Part shown: piece by piece, positions 16,376-49,873 of the stretch
Numbering within the stretch: position 1 is the stretch's first letter
Layout of the letters: the number at the start of each line of letters is the position of its first letter
From: Bifidobacterium sp. WK012_4_13
GTDB taxonomy: Bacteria; Actinomycetota; Actinomycetes; Actinomycetales; Bifidobacteriaceae
Assembly: GCF_041080835.1 (NCBI RefSeq)
Contig: NZ_CP129683.1
Coordinates: 1 to 64,000, forward strand
Length of the DNA stretch: 64,000 bases
Direction of reading: 5' to 3'
Program-made: the position numbers and the translations under genes
Notes under the pieces: model-generated
The model's input: only the letters and a program-made list of their open reading frames with translations
What the model was told of the DNA's origin: nothing
Database searches by the model: none

Positions 16376-17668
16376 TTGAAAGCGCTGATCATAAAGGAAT
16401 TTCAAGAGTTGCTGAAAGACAGGCGCACTCTGGCGATGCTTGTTGTCATGCCTGTCTTGCTGCTCATAATATTCGGCTATGCCGCGAACTTCTCGGTTTC
16501 CAAGGTCTCGGTGTCGGTCATCGGAGCGCACTCTGAGACGCTGGCAGCTTCGATTCGCGGCTTCAAGGTCGCACGGGAAGACATGGACATCGTTGCCGTC
16601 GACGCATCGAAGTCAGGTCGCGCCGCTGCGGAGAATATTCTCAAGTCACAGTCCAGCGATGTGGTCATTCAAAGCATGGGCGCTGCCTCCGGCACTCCGC
16701 TGTCGGAACGCATGAAGGTGTACGTAGACGGATCGCAGCTGTTCACCGCCCAGGCTGCGAAGAAGACGATCCTGCAGCTGGTCGCGCAGGATGCCCAGAC
16801 GCGTATCGCGACGGTCACAAGCAAGGTCACGATGCTCTCCGAACTGTCTCAGAACAACGCCAGGGAATTCAAGGACTATGTCAGTCGACTTCAGGAGTGG
16901 AGAGTCGCCGTCTCAAACGCCATTGAAAGTGGAACGGTGCCGCCGGCGGCTCCGACGCCGCCTCAGATATCGCAGAGTGCCAGCATTCCCAAGATCTCCA
17001 TGTCTTCCTTCTCCGATGATTCGACGGTGACCGTGCTTTTCAATCCCGAGCTTGACACCTCATGGGTTATGGTTCCCGGCCTCATAGGACTTATCCTGAC
17101 GCTTATCGGAACGGTGATCACCAGCATCGGCCTTGTCCGCGAACGTGAGACAGGAACCCTTGAGCAGCTGGCTGTGATGCCCATACGCTCTGGGTCGATA
17201 ATCATGGGCAAGATCGTACCGTATTTCGTTCTGGCCATCATCGACATGCTCATCGTCACCTTCCTTGCCCGATGGCTGTTCGGCGTTCCCTTCGTGGGAG
17301 ACGTCGGAACATTCGTTCTGGCTGTCTTGCTGTTCCTCTTCGTGGTGCTCGGCCTTGGAGTCCTCATCTCCACCTTGTCCCAAACCAGCGGACAGGCAAT
17401 TCAGATGGCATTGATGATCACCATGCCTCAGATCCTTCTCAGCGGCATCATATTCCCCTTGAAGTCAATGGCTGCGGCAATCAGATGGATTGGCTACGCT
17501 CTTCCGTTGACATGGTTCAACAAGGTCTCGCAAGGCGTGATGCTCCGGGGAGCATCGTTGCAGGACCTGTGGCTGCCGCTGACGGTTCTGGCGCTGGAGG
17601 CGGTCGTCATCTTCGGCTTTGCGACCTTGCGCATGCGATATGTCCTCACCCATGGGGGTGCGCGATGA
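16376..17668 (+). CDS. ABC-2 type transporter permease
   Basis: A 430-residue membrane subunit of an ABC exporter, YhhJ/YbhR-like. One helix lies near the N-terminus (LVVMPVLLLIIFGYAANF), then an extracytoplasmic domain of about 200 residues, then five helices. VRERETGTLEQLAVMPI is the ABC-2 signature before the second helix. The start is TTG at 16376, 6-8 bases after GGGGGAGGGAGA; upstream codons in frame give a non-membrane, low-complexity stretch. It overlaps the following ATPase gene by four bases. The transported substrate is unknown; export of a drug or toxic compound is the usual role. Confidence 0.87.
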   Translation: MKALIIKEFQELLKDRRTLAMLVVMPVLLLIIFGYAANFSVSKVSVSVIGAHSETLAASIRGFKVAREDMDIVAVDASKSGRAAAENILKSQSSDVVIQSMGAASGTPLSERMKVYVDGSQLFTAQAAKKTILQLVAQDAQTRIATVTSKVTMLSELSQNNAREFKDYVSRLQEWRVAVSNAIESGTVPPAAPTPPQISQSASIPKISMSSFSDDSTVTVLFNPELDTSWVMVPGLIGLILTLIGTVITSIGLVRERETGTLEQLAVMPIRSGSIIMGKIVPYFVLAIIDMLIVTFLARWLFGVPFVGDVGTFVLAVLLFLFVVLGLGVLISTLSQTSGQAIQMALMITMPQILLSGIIFPLKSMAAAIRWIGYALPLTWFNKVSQGVMLRGASLQDLWLPLTVLALEAVVIFGFATLRMRYVLTHGGAR

Positions 17669-44041: not shown

Positions 44042-45400
44042 ATGCATGGGAGCATGGCAGGCATGGATAAACAGCAGGAGTTTGCGTTACGCACCGTTGA
44101 GGAACGCGATGTACGTTTCATTCGTCTATGGTTCACCGACGTATTGGGGACTCTCAAGTCCGTGGCAATAGCGCCGGCGGAGTTGGAGGCGGCCTTCGAG
44201 GAGGGACTGGGCTTCGACGGATCGGCCATCGAAGGCATGACCCGCGTGTCGGAAGACGACATGATCGTCAAGCCCGATCCTTCGACCTTCCAGATTCTGC
44301 CGTGGCGCGGCGGCCCTCAGGGCACCGCCCGCATGTTCTGCGACATTCTTACGCCAGACGGCGAGCCGAGCCTCGGCGATCCTCGCCACGTTCTCAAAAG
44401 AGCGCTTTCCAAGGCCAAGGACAAGGGATTCACCTTCTATGTGCATCCCGAGATCGAATTCTATCTTTTTGAACATCAGGACGATTGGTCAAAGGCTCCG
44501 ACGCCTATCGACCATGGCGGTTACTTTGACCATGTCCCGCGCAGTCCAGGGATGGACTTCCGCCGTGCGACCGTGAACATGCTTGAGCAGATGGGGATTT
44601 CCGTCGAATATTCGCATCACGAGGCAGGTCCTGGACAGAATGAGATCGATCTGCGCTATGCGGATGCACTGACCACCGCCGACAACATCATGACTTTCAG
44701 GACAGTCGTGAAGGAGGTCTCGCTTGAACGAGGCATTCACGCCAGCTTCATGCCGAAGCCGTTGTCGGATCAGCCAGGTTCTGGAATGCATACGCATCTG
44801 AGTCTTTTCGAAGGGGATGCCAACGCCTTCTACGAGGCTGGTCAGGAATTCAACATGTCGCTCACGGCGCGTCAGTTCGCTGCGGGAATTCTCTATCATG
44901 CGGCCGAGATCACTGCCGTCACGGACCAGTATGTGAACTCGTACAAGCGTCTGTGGGGAGGGAACGAGGCTCCGAGCTATGTGTGCTGGGGTCATAACAA
45001 CCGCTCCGCTTTGCTCAGAATTCCCCAGTACAAGCCAGGCAAGGGCAATTCCGCACGCATGGAGTTCCGTGCGCTCGATCCCGTGACCAATCCATACTTG
45101 GCTTATTCCGTTCTTTTGGCGGCAGGTCTTGACGGTGTCGAACAGCAGATGACACTCTGCGAGCCCACCAGCGACGATGTGTGGGAGCTCACCGATGCGG
45201 AACGTCAGTCCATGGGCATACAGCCATTGCCGGACTCATTGGACGCCGCATTGAAGATCATGGAGAAGTCTGAATTCGTGGCCAACGTCCTCGGCGAGCA
45301 CGCCTTCGAGTATTTCCTGCGCAACAAGCGCAAGGAATGGGATGAATACCGTCTTCAGGTCACGCCATACGAGCTTCAGAAATACCTGCCCACCCTCTGA
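44042..45400 (+). CDS. glnA: Glutamine synthetase type I, alpha-like
   Basis: It makes glutamine from glutamate, ammonia and ATP, and feeds HisH, CarA and PurL. The protein (about 450 residues) has GLGFDGSAIEGM, HPEIEFYLF, GPGQNEIDLRYADAL, FMPKPL and KPGKGNSARMEFRALD. The usual adenylylation loop (NLYDLPPEE) here reads DDVWELTDAE, so the regulatory Tyr is Trp and adenylylation is unlikely. ATG at 44042 has AGGA upstream; ATG at 44063 (MDKQQEF) is where homologues usually start. A long hairpin element follows. Confidence 0.95.
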   Translation: MHGSMAGMDKQQEFALRTVEERDVRFIRLWFTDVLGTLKSVAIAPAELEAAFEEGLGFDGSAIEGMTRVSEDDMIVKPDPSTFQILPWRGGPQGTARMFCDILTPDGEPSLGDPRHVLKRALSKAKDKGFTFYVHPEIEFYLFEHQDDWSKAPTPIDHGGYFDHVPRSPGMDFRRATVNMLEQMGISVEYSHHEAGPGQNEIDLRYADALTTADNIMTFRTVVKEVSLERGIHASFMPKPLSDQPGSGMHTHLSLFEGDANAFYEAGQEFNMSLTARQFAAGILYHAAEITAVTDQYVNSYKRLWGGNEAPSYVCWGHNNRSALLRIPQYKPGKGNSARMEFRALDPVTNPYLAYSVLLAAGLDGVEQQMTLCEPTSDDVWELTDAERQSMGIQPLPDSLDAALKIMEKSEFVANVLGEHAFEYFLRNKRKEWDEYRLQVTPYELQKYLPTL

Positions 45401-45776
45401 CGATCAGCACAGTGACGATCAGCACAGTTGACGATCCACCCTGTGAGATCCACACGGTGACAATCAACCCCTGTGACGATCGAGATTGTAAGTTTTGAGA
45501 ACTCACAGAAGTATGCAAGCCCGGAATCGTTGAAAAACCGACCGGCAGCAAGCCAAAAACAGCTGTCTATACTTCTGCGAGTTCCCAAAACTTACAATCT
45601 CGATGGATTGCTGCGTGAATCCGTCCAACAAGGCCCTCAAGAGGGCAATGATTCTCAACTTTTTTGTTCAGACAAGGATGTCTTAATAAAAATCCAACAA
45701 TTCTCGAACGATTGACCAACGCACATTCCATAGATTCTTGATTGTCAACGAAGCTTAGATAGTCAAGGAGTGGATT
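45401..45776. other. Gap between glnA and the peptide cassette
   Basis: This 376-base region holds degenerate GTGACGATC-type repeats (45399-45480), the long hairpin (45479-45604) and an AT-rich stretch with poly-T (45659-45665). The cassette promoter should lie between 45605 and 45760; TTGACC at 45713 is a possible -35. No other gene is seen. Confidence 0.6.
45479..45604. repeat. Long hairpin element (family copy 2) downstream of glnA
   Basis: ATCGAGATTGTAAGTTTTG (45479-45497) pairs perfectly with 45586-45604. After one A-C mismatch GAACTC pairs with GAGTTC, and after another CAGAAGTAT pairs with ATACTTCTG. That gives 34 pairs across 36 positions, with a 54-base loop containing GAAAAACCG. 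It resembles the element at 33619-33732 in its AGTTTTG arms, CACAG..GTAT inner arm and GAAAAACCG loop. Confidence 0.75.
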
Positions 45777-45845
45777 ATGTCAATCAACATGTGCAGCGAC
45801 ATCGGTGGTGCGGCGGCCGCATCAGTGTGTGAGATCCTGCTATGA
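45777..45845 (+). CDS. 22-residue peptide gene leading the ABC/acyltransferase cassette
   Basis: A short frame, ATG at 45777 to TGA at 45845, has an ideal ribosome site (AAGGAG, 45765-45770, six-base spacing). Its stop overlaps the ATPase start (ATGA), and the ATPase lacks a good ribosome site of its own. The peptide begins MSINMC, has a Gly-Gly followed by four Ala in the middle, and ends SVCEILL, giving two Cys. It may be a small precursor or signal peptide handled by the neighbouring proteins, or only a leader for translational coupling. I know of no matching family. Confidence 0.6.
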   Translation: MSINMCSDIGGAAAASVCEILL

Positions 45846-46741
45846 ATGCGATAGAGACACAGGGACTGTCAAAGTCATTCAGAAGAATTCCCGCGGTGCA
45901 GGATCTGACCATGCACGTTCCCGAGGCATCGATCTATGGATTCATCGGTGAGAACGGGTCAGGAAAGTCAACCACGGAAAAGCTGCTGTGTGGCTTGCTC
46001 ATTCCATCCCAAGGCAGCATCGAACTTTTCGGAAAGTCATACAAGGATGCAGGAATCCGCTCGCAGATGGGCGTTCTCATCGAGAATCCAGGATGTTTCC
46101 CCAACAGCACCGTATATCAGAATCTGATGATGCAGGCGCTGAACCTTGGCATTCGAAAGCCCAAGGAAGAGGTCATCCGGGTTCTGACGATGGTGAGCAT
46201 GTCGGGCGCTGCGGGCCGCAAGTTCAAGGAGTGCTCCCTCGGCATGAAGCAGCGCCTTGGTCTGGCCCAGGCGCTGATGGGACGTCCGCGTCTGCTCATC
46301 CTCGACGAGCCGATCAATGGACTCGATGCCGATGGCATGCGCATCGTCCGAGAGACGCTTGTCAACCTCAACCGTCAGGAAGGCGTGACCATCCTGATCA
46401 GTTCGCACATACTTGGCGAACTCGGCAAGATCGCGACGCATTATGGCATCATCCGTCAGGGCAAGCTCATCCGTGAGCTTGAGTCCAGGGAAATGTCCGA
46501 GGAATGCAAGGACTTCGTATTCGTCACGACGAACAATGATGCAGCCGCAATAGGCGCACTGAGCAAGCGATACCGTCAGGTCGAGATCAAGGGACGGGGC
46601 ATTCGCGTCTATGACGAGACCGAGAGCTCCACGGTTTCGCGCTTCCTCTACGAAGAGGGATTCGGAATCAATGAGATTTCATTCAACAGGATCGGGCTTG
46701 AGGAGTATTACGAGCGCGTGATGAGTAGAGAGGCACGATGA
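45842..46741 (+). CDS. Bcr-type ABC transporter ATPase
   Basis: A 299-residue ATPase of the bacitracin/lantibiotic-immunity type. It has Walker A GENGSGKST, the Q-loop region ENPGCFP, signature CSLGMKQRLGLAQAL, Walker B LLILDEPINGLD and H-loop ISSHIL. The start overlaps the 22-residue peptide stop, and the end overlaps the permease start by four bases, so translation of the three is coupled. Such transporters usually remove peptides or antibiotics from the membrane. The substrate here is unknown. Confidence 0.88.
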   Translation: MNAIETQGLSKSFRRIPAVQDLTMHVPEASIYGFIGENGSGKSTTEKLLCGLLIPSQGSIELFGKSYKDAGIRSQMGVLIENPGCFPNSTVYQNLMMQALNLGIRKPKEEVIRVLTMVSMSGAAGRKFKECSLGMKQRLGLAQALMGRPRLLILDEPINGLDADGMRIVRETLVNLNRQEGVTILISSHILGELGKIATHYGIIRQGKLIRELESREMSEECKDFVFVTTNNDAAAIGALSKRYRQVEIKGRGIRVYDETESSTVSRFLYEEGFGINEISFNRIGLEEYYERVMSREAR

Positions 46742-47592
46742 GCATGTCAGCCACAACCGTTTCGCAGCCAAAGACCATTGCCATGAACCGCATCTCGCCG
46801 ATGCTCAGGCTTGACTTCTACAGGCTGTTCCACACCCCGCTGCTCTACATCATGATGGCGGTCGCGGCAGTGATTCCCGCCTTGGTCATGACGATGTCGG
46901 GAGCGAGCACGACGGACGCATCGGGCAAGGTCGTCGAACCCACGATCGTATACACCAACGCGTTTCAGCTTATCGCTCCGCAGCATCCCCAGTATGTCAT
47001 TTCGGATTTCGGGGATTACGCCAACATCAACATGGTCTACATCTTCGGAGGCATGCTGCTGGCCATCTTCATCGGACATGATTACATGTCAGGCTTCGTG
47101 AAGAACGTGTTCACGGTGCATTCCAAGAAGCGCGACTATGTGATCTCGAAGATAGCCATCGGCACCTTCTCGATGATCTGCATGATCGGCACCTATGTTC
47201 TCGGCTCGATGGTTTCCGGCCTTCTCAACGGAAAGTCCTTCAGCGTCTCGATCGTCGGACTCCTGCTCTGCCTGGTGGCAAAGGTGATACTCGCGCTCGG
47301 CTTCAGCTCGCTCTTCGTCCTGATAAGCGTCCTGTTCCGCAGGCTGCTGGGCATCAGCATCGTCGGATCCTTCTTCTTCGGAACCGGCATGCTCGTGATG
47401 GGCGCCGCCGCGGTCCTCGCCTCGATGGGACTTGAATCGCTGATGGGTGTGTTCCTCTATGGTGCGGCCTCTGGAGCATCGCTCTCATCGACATGGATAA
47501 CCGTCATCGTGAGCCTGGCGTGCTCGGCAGCATGGGCACTGATCTATACGCAGCTTTCAACATTCATCCTCAACCATAGGGACTTGGCATAG
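46738..47592 (+). CDS. ABC-2 family permease
   Basis: A 284-residue membrane subunit with six hydrophobic stretches, including PLLYIMMAVAAVIPALVM near residue 35 and VSLACSAAWALIYTQLSTFI at the end. DYMSGFVKNVFTVHSKKRDY lies between helices 2 and 3, as in lantibiotic-immunity permeases of the BcrB/MutE type. It overlaps the ATPase gene and lies two bases before the acyltransferase-like gene. Confidence 0.85.
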   Translation: MSMSATTVSQPKTIAMNRISPMLRLDFYRLFHTPLLYIMMAVAAVIPALVMTMSGASTTDASGKVVEPTIVYTNAFQLIAPQHPQYVISDFGDYANINMVYIFGGMLLAIFIGHDYMSGFVKNVFTVHSKKRDYVISKIAIGTFSMICMIGTYVLGSMVSGLLNGKSFSVSIVGLLLCLVAKVILALGFSSLFVLISVLFRRLLGISIVGSFFFGTGMLVMGAAAVLASMGLESLMGVFLYGAASGASLSSTWITVIVSLACSAAWALIYTQLSTFILNHRDLA

Positions 47593-47594
47593 AT

Positions 47595-48881
47595 ATGAAA
47601 AAGATATATTCCGGACAATCATTCCTTTACAGGGCGAATGGCTACAACAGCACCGTATTCGAGGCCCGCATGACACAGAGGATCCGTGGGGACAGCCTGG
47701 AGACCGCGGTCAGGAACACGGCCAAGCGCTTTCCCGACATGACGCAGAAGCTCGTGGAGAAGGATGGAAGCTATTACCTTCATCCCGATTCGGTCTCGCT
47801 GAATGCGGTCCCGACCAAGAGACTGAGAACCTTGGGAAGCATGGAGACCGGCTATCATCTGATCGACGTCACCTTCACCGGCAACATCATCAGGGTTGCA
47901 TTCCATCACGCACTGTGCGATGGAATGGGTGCCAAGGACTTCCTGCAGACGCTGCTGTATTACTACTGCACCGAACGCTATCAGAGGCAGTTCAACAACG
48001 AGGGGATCCATACCCTCGACGAGGTCATCGACCCGAGGGAATTCCAGGAGCCACTGCCATCGCAGCCGTATCAGGTCGATAGGGATGCGATCAAGCCGAT
48101 GACCACGGATGGCTTCCAGCTTCCAGAGAGCACGCCGGGGGCGGTCGAATGCTGCAGGACCGAGATAACCGTCGATCAGAAGGAGTTCGTCACGCTGTCG
48201 AAGAACCATGGCGCGACGCCTGCGATCATGGCGGCCATGCTGTTCTCACGAAGCGTGCTTCGACAGTTCCCCGAGGCCGACAAGCCAATACTGTGCAACA
48301 TGGCTGCGGACATGCGGTTCGCAATCGACGGCGCGATAACCCGACGCAACTGCACCGGTTCGTTCTATCTGCCATATTCCAAGGATGACGAGGCCTCCGG
48401 CATGGCTCAGGTGGCGGCAAACCATCGCAGACTCATCGCCGAGCAGAGGAGCGAGGATGCGGCGCATCAGAGCGTGAACAATCAGATTGGACTGTTCACG
48501 AAGCTTGAATCGATGCCGAGCCTGGAAGCGAAGCGGCAGATGATGTCGATGTTCGACCACTTGCTGCTGAACACCTATGTGCTCAGCTACGTCGGACGGA
48601 TGAGATTCAACGATTTCGGACGCTTCGTGAAGTCGGTGCATATGTACAGCGGCGGCATCAAGGGCCTAACCATTAACATGGTGGCTGCCGGCGATTCGAT
48701 GACCTTCGATGTGCTTCAGGGCTTTGAAGGCGAAAGGTATGTCCAGGGATTCGTTCGTGAACTGCAGGAGCAGGGCCTCGGCTGCAGGGTGGGCGACACG
48801 CTGCCTTGCGAGACGGGGGCGGATCGGAGCCATGTCACTGCTCGTCGACAGGCCGAACGCTGGTATGCGGTCGCCCAATGA
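47595..48881 (+). CDS. HHxxxDG acyltransferase-like protein (condensation-domain superfamily)
   Basis: A 428-residue protein of the chloramphenicol acetyltransferase/condensation fold. The catalytic motif HHALCDG lies at residues 104-110, in the right place. The closest remembered relatives are stand-alone acyl- or alcohol acetyltransferases and PapA-type proteins. No carrier-protein or adenylation domain is present here. It is two bases behind the permease, so it belongs to the same operon as the small peptide and ABC transporter. It may acylate the transported compound. The substrate is unknown. Confidence 0.75.
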   Translation: MKKIYSGQSFLYRANGYNSTVFEARMTQRIRGDSLETAVRNTAKRFPDMTQKLVEKDGSYYLHPDSVSLNAVPTKRLRTLGSMETGYHLIDVTFTGNIIRVAFHHALCDGMGAKDFLQTLLYYYCTERYQRQFNNEGIHTLDEVIDPREFQEPLPSQPYQVDRDAIKPMTTDGFQLPESTPGAVECCRTEITVDQKEFVTLSKNHGATPAIMAAMLFSRSVLRQFPEADKPILCNMAADMRFAIDGAITRRNCTGSFYLPYSKDDEASGMAQVAANHRRLIAEQRSEDAAHQSVNNQIGLFTKLESMPSLEAKRQMMSMFDHLLLNTYVLSYVGRMRFNDFGRFVKSVHMYSGGIKGLTINMVAAGDSMTFDVLQGFEGERYVQGFVRELQEQGLGCRVGDTLPCETGADRSHVTARRQAERWYAVAQ

Positions 48882-48946
48882 GCGCTTGATTCATCCGATG
48901 TGGCGCGCCTGTGCAGGATATTAGGCGTACGGCATCGGGGTCGGAA

Positions 48947-49873
48947 CTATTGCCTGTTCGAAGTCACAGGAAACCAATGCTTGTAGATGTACGAGAAATT
49001 GCGATTGCCATAGCTCGAGCACGCGTTGCCTTCGCCGACGACTGCAGCAAGGGCTGCGCCGTTCGGCTGATAGGGTGTGTAGATGTAGAGCAGCGCCGTC
49101 GCACGGTTTTCGATGTAGACCTTCGTCCCGCCGCATGAGGCGGTCGGACTGTAGGCGATGTAGTTCAGCTGACCTGAATGGTATGAATATTCGGAAGCGT
49201 GGGCGAGATAGTATCTGAATCGCTTGGCCGACCCATACACCTGCTTGAAGAATCCTGCGTAGGCTGGATCGCAGTCAGCGTCATCGGGGCATGACAGGCC
49301 CATGGCCGACTTGTACTGCCAGGCGGTCGGACTGGTTGACGTGACGAGCTGCTGCTCCTTCTGCAGCAGCGTGATCAGGACCTTCTGGCTTATGCCGCAG
49401 GACCGGGCGACTCCGTCGATGATCGTCGCGGCGGATTGGCCTTTCCCGCCCTTGTATGCCTTGCATAGGGAATCGGCCGCGATGTCCGTGGTGTTCTGCG
49501 TATAGTTCCTCAGACATGAGCTGCCCTGGCATGCGCTGTTTCTCTCGTCGAGGAAGGTCTTCACGGATGAGGCGGTCATCGTCGTGCTGTCGAAGAACTG
49601 GGAATCGCTGACGATCTTTCCTGGGTTGAAGTCGTAGCGTGTGCTGAACTGTTCCTGCCGCTGCTGGGCCTGCTGCACGGCAAGCTCATATTGCCACCAA
49701 CGAATTCCCAGCATGATCAGCGTCATGGCAACGATGACCGCAATCGTCGAGCTTGAGCACAGTACGATCCTCTTGGCGAAGGACATGCGGCGCCATCGCC
49801 GTACGATGGCGTTCCCGCGCTGTCTGCGTGGCGATTCGTGCTTGTGTCTGGATTGGTGCTTAGTGGCTTTCAT
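48947..49873 (-). CDS. Secreted or membrane-anchored Cys-rich protein, actinobacterial hemagglutinin-like
   Basis: A 308-residue protein with a basic cytoplasmic start (HQSRHKHESPRRQRGN), one membrane helix near residues 37-60 and an outside domain. The domain has paired Cys residues (SACQGSSC, SCPDDADC) and the blocks ISQKVLITLLQKEQQLVTS, YIYTPYQPN and CSSYGNRNFSYIYKHWF. These blocks recur in secreted actinobacterial proteins sometimes labelled hemagglutinin. A cell-wall role is plausible, but the activity is not known. It is convergent with the acyltransferase-like gene and runs in the same direction as hrpA. Confidence 0.7.
   Translation of the reverse strand: MKATKHQSRHKHESPRRQRGNAIVRRWRRMSFAKRIVLCSSSTIAVIVAMTLIMLGIRWWQYELAVQQAQQRQEQFSTRYDFNPGKIVSDSQFFDSTTMTASSVKTFLDERNSACQGSSCLRNYTQNTTDIAADSLCKAYKGGKGQSAATIIDGVARSCGISQKVLITLLQKEQQLVTSTSPTAWQYKSAMGLSCPDDADCDPAYAGFFKQVYGSAKRFRYYLAHASEYSYHSGQLNYIAYSPTASCGGTKVYIENRATALLYIYTPYQPNGAALAAVVGEGNACSSYGNRNFSYIYKHWFPVTSNRQ

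Follow-up and report, generated by a model that had tools for sequence, protein, structure and literature searches.

The exporters of the BcrAB and LanFE(G) type, matched by TIGR03740 (galliderm_ABC), combine an ATP-binding cassette (ABC) ATPase with a small ABC-2 permease. PapA5, an acyltransferase for mycobacterial lipids, is one of the stand-alone acyltransferases of the condensation/BAHD/CAT superfamily. In Bacillus subtilis, a small frame, BmrB, lies directly before the ABC exporter BmrCD, and its translation is required for drug induction (PMC4191407). Here we describe a locus with counterparts to each of these in Bifidobacterium sp. WK012_4_13 (contig NZ_CP129683.1, positions 1 to 64,000; this stretch of 64,000 nucleotides is called the window below), where a three-gene operon-like block, or cassette, lies between glnA and a gene for a 308-residue protein and codes for an ABC ATPase, a permease, and a condensation-fold protein.

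The locus has the ATPase architecture and small ABC-2 permease in common with BcrAB and LanFE(G). It differs from them in a TIGR03740 score below the cut-off, in that no second permease, lipoprotein, or lantibiotic genes were recognized in the cassette, and in the acyltransferase-like gene that comes after the exporter. PapA5 and the other stand-alone acyltransferases of its superfamily are 8-15% identical to the window protein among the matches listed; here, in contrast, PF00668 (the condensation domain) has no match to the protein at E-values up to 0.1, and no polyketide synthase or non-ribosomal peptide synthetase genes were recognized nearby. A short frame directly precedes the exporter, as in bmrCD; however, BmrB has 53 residues, ends 119 bp before bmrC, and has terminator stems (PMC4191407), whereas the window frame has 22 codons, overlaps the ATPase gene by 4 nt, and has no terminator found on the + strand. 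The nearest precedent found for such a frame is BmrB, a sensing leader. A literature search over titles and abstract openings of the papers listed yielded no description of this gene set, which is not proof of its absence.

Organization of the cassette and its proposed mechanism

The features of the locus are as follows.

45765..45770, + strand: Shine-Dalgarno sequence AAGGAG, 6 nt ahead of the ATG of the candidate leader (from the sequence)
45777..45845, + strand: 22-codon frame whose TGA overlaps the ATPase ATG, interpreted as a translational-coupling leader
45842..46741, + strand: BcrA/LanF-like ABC ATPase (PF00005, 103.1 bits; TIGR03740, 194.6 bits, cut-off 309.75)
46738..47592, + strand: ABC-2 type permease, 284 aa (PF12730, 22.9 bits, cut-off 27)
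47595..48881, + strand: stand-alone condensation/PapA-fold acyltransferase-like protein, 428 aa
47904..47924, + strand: HHALCDG, residues 104-110 of the 428-aa protein

The short frame overlaps the ATPase gene by 4 nt, the ATPase gene overlaps the permease gene by the same length, the gap between the permease and 428-aa genes is 2 nt, and the reading frames of all three genes are open. A Shine-Dalgarno scan gave the AAGGAG before the short frame as the sole strong site of the cassette; the permease start has GAGG 4 nt upstream, and no site was seen for the ATPase and 428-aa genes in the same scan. The first-pass annotation, made from the letters of the window, had these junctions, the ribosome site of the short frame, and the HHALCDG motif right.

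We propose that ribosomes would load at AAGGAG, translate the 22 codons, terminate at the TGA overlapping the ATPase start codon, and then re-initiate; the short frame would thus be a coupling leader and its peptide a by-product. The ABC pair may export or extrude a membrane-active compound, while the third protein would transfer an acyl group, probably from acyl-CoA, to the exported compound or a related lipid, so that the unit would be a small efflux-plus-modification (protection) module. We give about an even chance to this combination of a leader-coupled ABC exporter and an acyltransferase in one protection module, with coupling, export, and acyl transfer all putative.

The short frame

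The frame translates as MSINMCSDIGGAAAASVCEILL. As the first-pass annotation had said, this peptide has two Cys and a Gly-Gly; the tail it had called hydrophobic also includes a Glu. At 0.116 bits per codon, it scores higher than the other two frames (-0.868 and -0.195) and well below the three cassette genes (0.361-0.437). To estimate how often such an arrangement arises by chance, we shuffled the 240 nt upstream 20000 times with dinucleotides preserved and the ATPase ATGA fixed; a coupled frame appeared in 129 of 20000 shuffles with a Shine-Dalgarno match of at least 6 nt and in 668 with at least 5 nt. A frame of this kind is unusual for a single gene, yet not very surprising as one among the several dozen genes of the window.

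The annotation had considered the peptide as a product. Such a product could be a pheromone or a small bacteriocin modified or exported by its neighbors. The cysteines, the Gly-Gly, and a codon score above those of the other two frames are compatible with this idea, but other observations make it very unlikely. The C39 peptidase (PF03412) is found in 0 of 1 in this genome, compared with 8 of 14 in the control rings, and no peptide-modifying or maturation enzyme was recognized in the cassette. A loose tblastn search of ten fetched loci gave only chance-level matches (best E-value 0.17). The closest other ATPase (P0242, 78%) is called with 15 extra residues, which constrain the frame ending at the shared TGA. 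That frame is open, and 3 of its 15 positions are compatible with the window peptide versus 2.57 (standard deviation 1.29) for shuffled peptides, in a weak comparison that is indirect, codon-degenerate, and assumes the 15-residue extension to be genomic sequence. This chance-level agreement points weakly toward the lack of conservation that the first-pass annotation had named as refuting the peptide.

Four further loci with related ATPases have no comparable separate short frame. The ATPase gene of L038 is preceded, with the same CTATGA overlap, by the end of a gene for a CDF-like membrane protein, and that of L037 by a 176-aa gene ending 9 nt upstream. The ATPases of L090 and L043 have their own GGAGG-type sites, with no upstream frame of this kind in the former and one of only 12 codons, lacking a clear site, in the latter. 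These differing layouts suggest that the ATPase is variously coupled to whatever precedes it, a role that the 22 codons may serve here. The window ATPase itself starts with MNAIET, as do homologues. A coupling leader, which the annotation had mentioned as its own alternative, therefore fits best, judging from the layout, and is the better fit compared with a peptide product. If so, this cautions against taking a good ribosome site as enough to score a short frame as a peptide gene.

The leader might also sense: stalling, caused by a drug or a scarce aminoacyl-tRNA, or the opening of a hairpin over the ribosome site would then alter exporter expression, somewhat as in BmrB/BmrCD. Besides that precedent (PMC4191407), the strong Shine-Dalgarno sequence and the coupled stop would suit such a leader. 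So would a fold of 45716-45900, in which the Shine-Dalgarno sequence is paired in a predicted 12-bp stem (45735-45746 with 45758-45769) and could be hidden. However, the stem is missing from both shorter folds, whose sequences lack its 5' arm; with the site paired in one of three folds, the leader may still have a regulatory role. A simple scan of 45300-49100 found no terminator-like site on the + strand and two on the - strand, with 2.9 expected; an Rfam search gave no match, and the frame has no obvious regulatory codon run. We consider a sensing leader unlikely, and prefer one that serves coupling. By eye, TTGATTGTCAA at 45738-45748 within the same stem is an 11-bp palindrome lying 16 nt before the Shine-Dalgarno sequence, a possible operator.

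The exporter

The ATPase has, by eye, a Walker A motif GENGSGKST, the signature SLGMKQ, a Walker B motif LLILDEP, and the H-loop SSH; its nucleotide-binding domain is complete (PF00005 over residues 20-159, profile positions 2-137 of 137). TIGR03740 is its best curated subfamily match. The Bcr-type exporter of the first-pass annotation holds up as a Bcr/LanF-like one, and the ATPase appears nearest to the lantibiotic-protection subfamily, though at a sub-threshold score. The PF12730 (ABC2_membrane_4) score of the permease is likewise under the gathering cut-off; the same domain is carried by several permease homologues of about 50% identity. Against PDB sequences the ATPase matches generic ABC ATPases, with NosF on top (9.6e-37), and the permease profile has no match at 0.01.

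Close homologues of the exporter are abundant; Oscillospiraceae, Lachnospiraceae, and other Clostridia are among the source names displayed. A source labels the nearest ATPase cluster (98%) as Bifidobacterium sp. The permease was found in 2 of 189 genomes of the family, counting this one, in 3 of 297 of the order sample, and in 3 of 396 of the phylum sample, two of these being weak. No permease was found in phages, and the PHROGs collection gave one weak holin-labelled match for the permease (E-value 0.0062) and nothing for the acyltransferase. Plasmids have at least 5000 records matching the ATPase, the top-ranked at 42.5% identity, and no homologue of the acyltransferase or permease at 1e-5.

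The acyltransferase-like protein

Residues H104, H105, C108, D109, and G110 are invariant in all 33 aligned homologues, and matches to the condensation/PapA/BAHD fold span most of the 428-aa protein. The fold and the HHxxxDG motif are thus intact, in line with the annotation, and acyl transfer is the putative activity. PF00668 matches 2 of 33 family members (best E-value 0.0075), and the profile of the family has a single match among PDB sequences, at 0.045. Tri101/Tri3 and the plant BAHD enzymes were rejected as functional matches, having the fold in common and nothing further. Two viral contigs with both alignments (A1 and A2) match the pattern, yet are not relatives.

We found 199 homologues, with named sources in Actinomycetota and Bacillota. 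The one in B. psychraerophilum (66%) is the sole locus from the genome-contig scan. In a tree of 121 acyltransferases, built by a quick method, the window protein clusters with rows of its own genus with support 100; the gene may therefore be old in the genus, though its present site is new. The three rows of the same tree taken as ABC-linked do not form one clade (3 changes, shuffled mean 3.0).

Recurrence of the gene pair and its possible role

The recurrence of the pairing was tested by comparing contig sizes among the best 120 matches per protein. A contig of 12,708 bp occurs in all three lists (P0242 at 78%, P0122 at 67%, and P0008 at 57%), each being a single contig from one source. A size of 14,277 bp is common to the ATPase P0257 and the acyltransferase P0083, each having two contigs and the two sources being shared. 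For sizes of at least 5 kb, any two lists should agree by chance 0.11-0.16 times; the two short equal sizes (1658 and 1776) are at the chance rate. The pairing, in the sense of joint presence, thus very probably occurs in two or more further places beyond this genome.

Gene contexts elsewhere involve exporters and regulators. In G015 the acyltransferase gene follows a DHA2-type MFS gene, whose best matches, Lmr(B) (129.5 bits) and EmrB (119.7 bits), do not reach their cut-offs, and lies near a kinase/LuxR pair; in G009 it is preceded by a TetR gene. In G571 the ABC pair stands beside a HisKA_3/LuxR two-component pair, and relatives of the G015 kinase/LuxR pair and of two further proteins flank it. 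We also observed that L011 (7188-13506) contains the acyltransferase, a DHA2-type MFS protein, a CDF-like membrane protein, and a 188-aa protein, with a divergent histidine kinase and LuxR-type regulator. In L037 the ABC pair is flanked by relatives of the CDF-like and 188-aa proteins, the kinase, and the regulator. No family matches the 176/188-aa or CDF-like proteins above cut-off, and plasmids have no homologue of the 188-aa or CDF-like protein at 1e-3. On the contig of G621 (L038, 3384-10384) the ABC pair accompanies genes for ArdC-N, a primase-polymerase (Prim-Pol), a ParB-like protein, and an M23 peptidase, which suggests a mobile element.

Several observations weigh against the protection module. 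Coupling is read from the layout; a search of 45300-49100 for sigma-70-like promoters gave 0 matches with 2.1 expected; no acyltransferase was seen near the ABC pairs of G571, G621, and G740 in the stretches examined; and none of the four other genomes of the genus with the acyltransferase gave a permease homologue, so that the association of exporter and acyltransferase is loose rather than obligatory. These four genomes, and the fetched stretches around the acyltransferase, in which no relative of the permease was found, would also agree with an acyltransferase that came to lie beside the ABC genes by an accident of insertion and acts on its own. Given the 2-bp spacing in this operon and the joint presence on two further contigs deduced from equal contig sizes, we hold such an accident to be improbable.

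The enzyme might instead build an acylated lipid or envelope component that the ABC pair moves across the membrane, in a unit of synthesis and export and not of protection. A lipid-making role would be compatible with the PapA5-like fold; however, no carrier-protein, ketosynthase, adenylation, or glycosyltransferase gene was recognized in the cassette, and some relatives of the acyltransferase are near drug-type MFS or TetR genes. We regard synthesis and export as rather doubtful and favor the protection module because of the exporter and regulator genes seen as neighbors. Of the small unit for making, modifying, or exporting a product suggested by the first-pass annotation, the operon, the exporter, and the fold stand, and the peptide as its product is not supported.

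It is a tentative suggestion, and one that may well prove wrong, that this unnamed HHxxxDG acyltransferase-like family is a recurrent partner of antimicrobial-type exporters, in an undescribed protection or lipid-remodelling module moving between gut and dairy bacteria. Were the pairing functional, a large unannotated acyltransferase-like family would be tied to exporter operons, giving a first handle on its substrate.

Insertion site and neighboring sequences

The cassette is inserted between glnA (44042-45400) and the gene for the 308-aa protein (48947-49873, opposite strand). The glnA region was compared in 6 of 27 genomes of the genus; each of the six has glnA and the 308-aa gene on one stretch, at distances of about 0.03, 0.21, 0.22, 0.87, 0.89, and 0.90 kb, and no cassette gene was found there. 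The window has 3.5 kb between the two genes, against about 0.21 kb in G018, its closest relative (glnA 97% identical). No target-site duplication was seen, the intergenic sequence being too diverged to decide. Horizontal transfer was rejected as a reading of composition: the GC content of the cassette (0.548-0.574) is similar to that of its neighbors, and the GC content at third codon positions of the permease gene (0.789), the highest among 21 frames measured, does not mark the block as foreign.

The three relatives with longer gaps have an extra frame between glnA and the 308-aa gene, of the endonuclease III type by eye, and the gaps of some relatives contain different inverted repeats, also by eye. 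In the window, a tandem array of units of about 15 nt (TGACGATCAGCACAG), with two exact copies and several degenerate by eye, extends from the glnA stop codon (45398-45470). It is followed, still ahead of the cassette, by an imperfect palindrome (45479-45604) with 36-nt arms, 94% complementary, and a 54-nt spacer (fold energy -59.9 kcal/mol for 45478-45620). A genome search with it gave 17 rows, which come down to 12 distinct places elsewhere once the palindrome, its arms, and the second arms of further copies are set aside. Three of these places are nearly full length with 76-78% identity, and the element looks like a dispersed palindromic repeat. Elsewhere in the window, his genes and hrpA, like glnA, are recognizable by eye, and another ABC2_membrane_4 match, above the cut-off at 35.1 bits, is located at 17039-17377 within a 497-aa frame.
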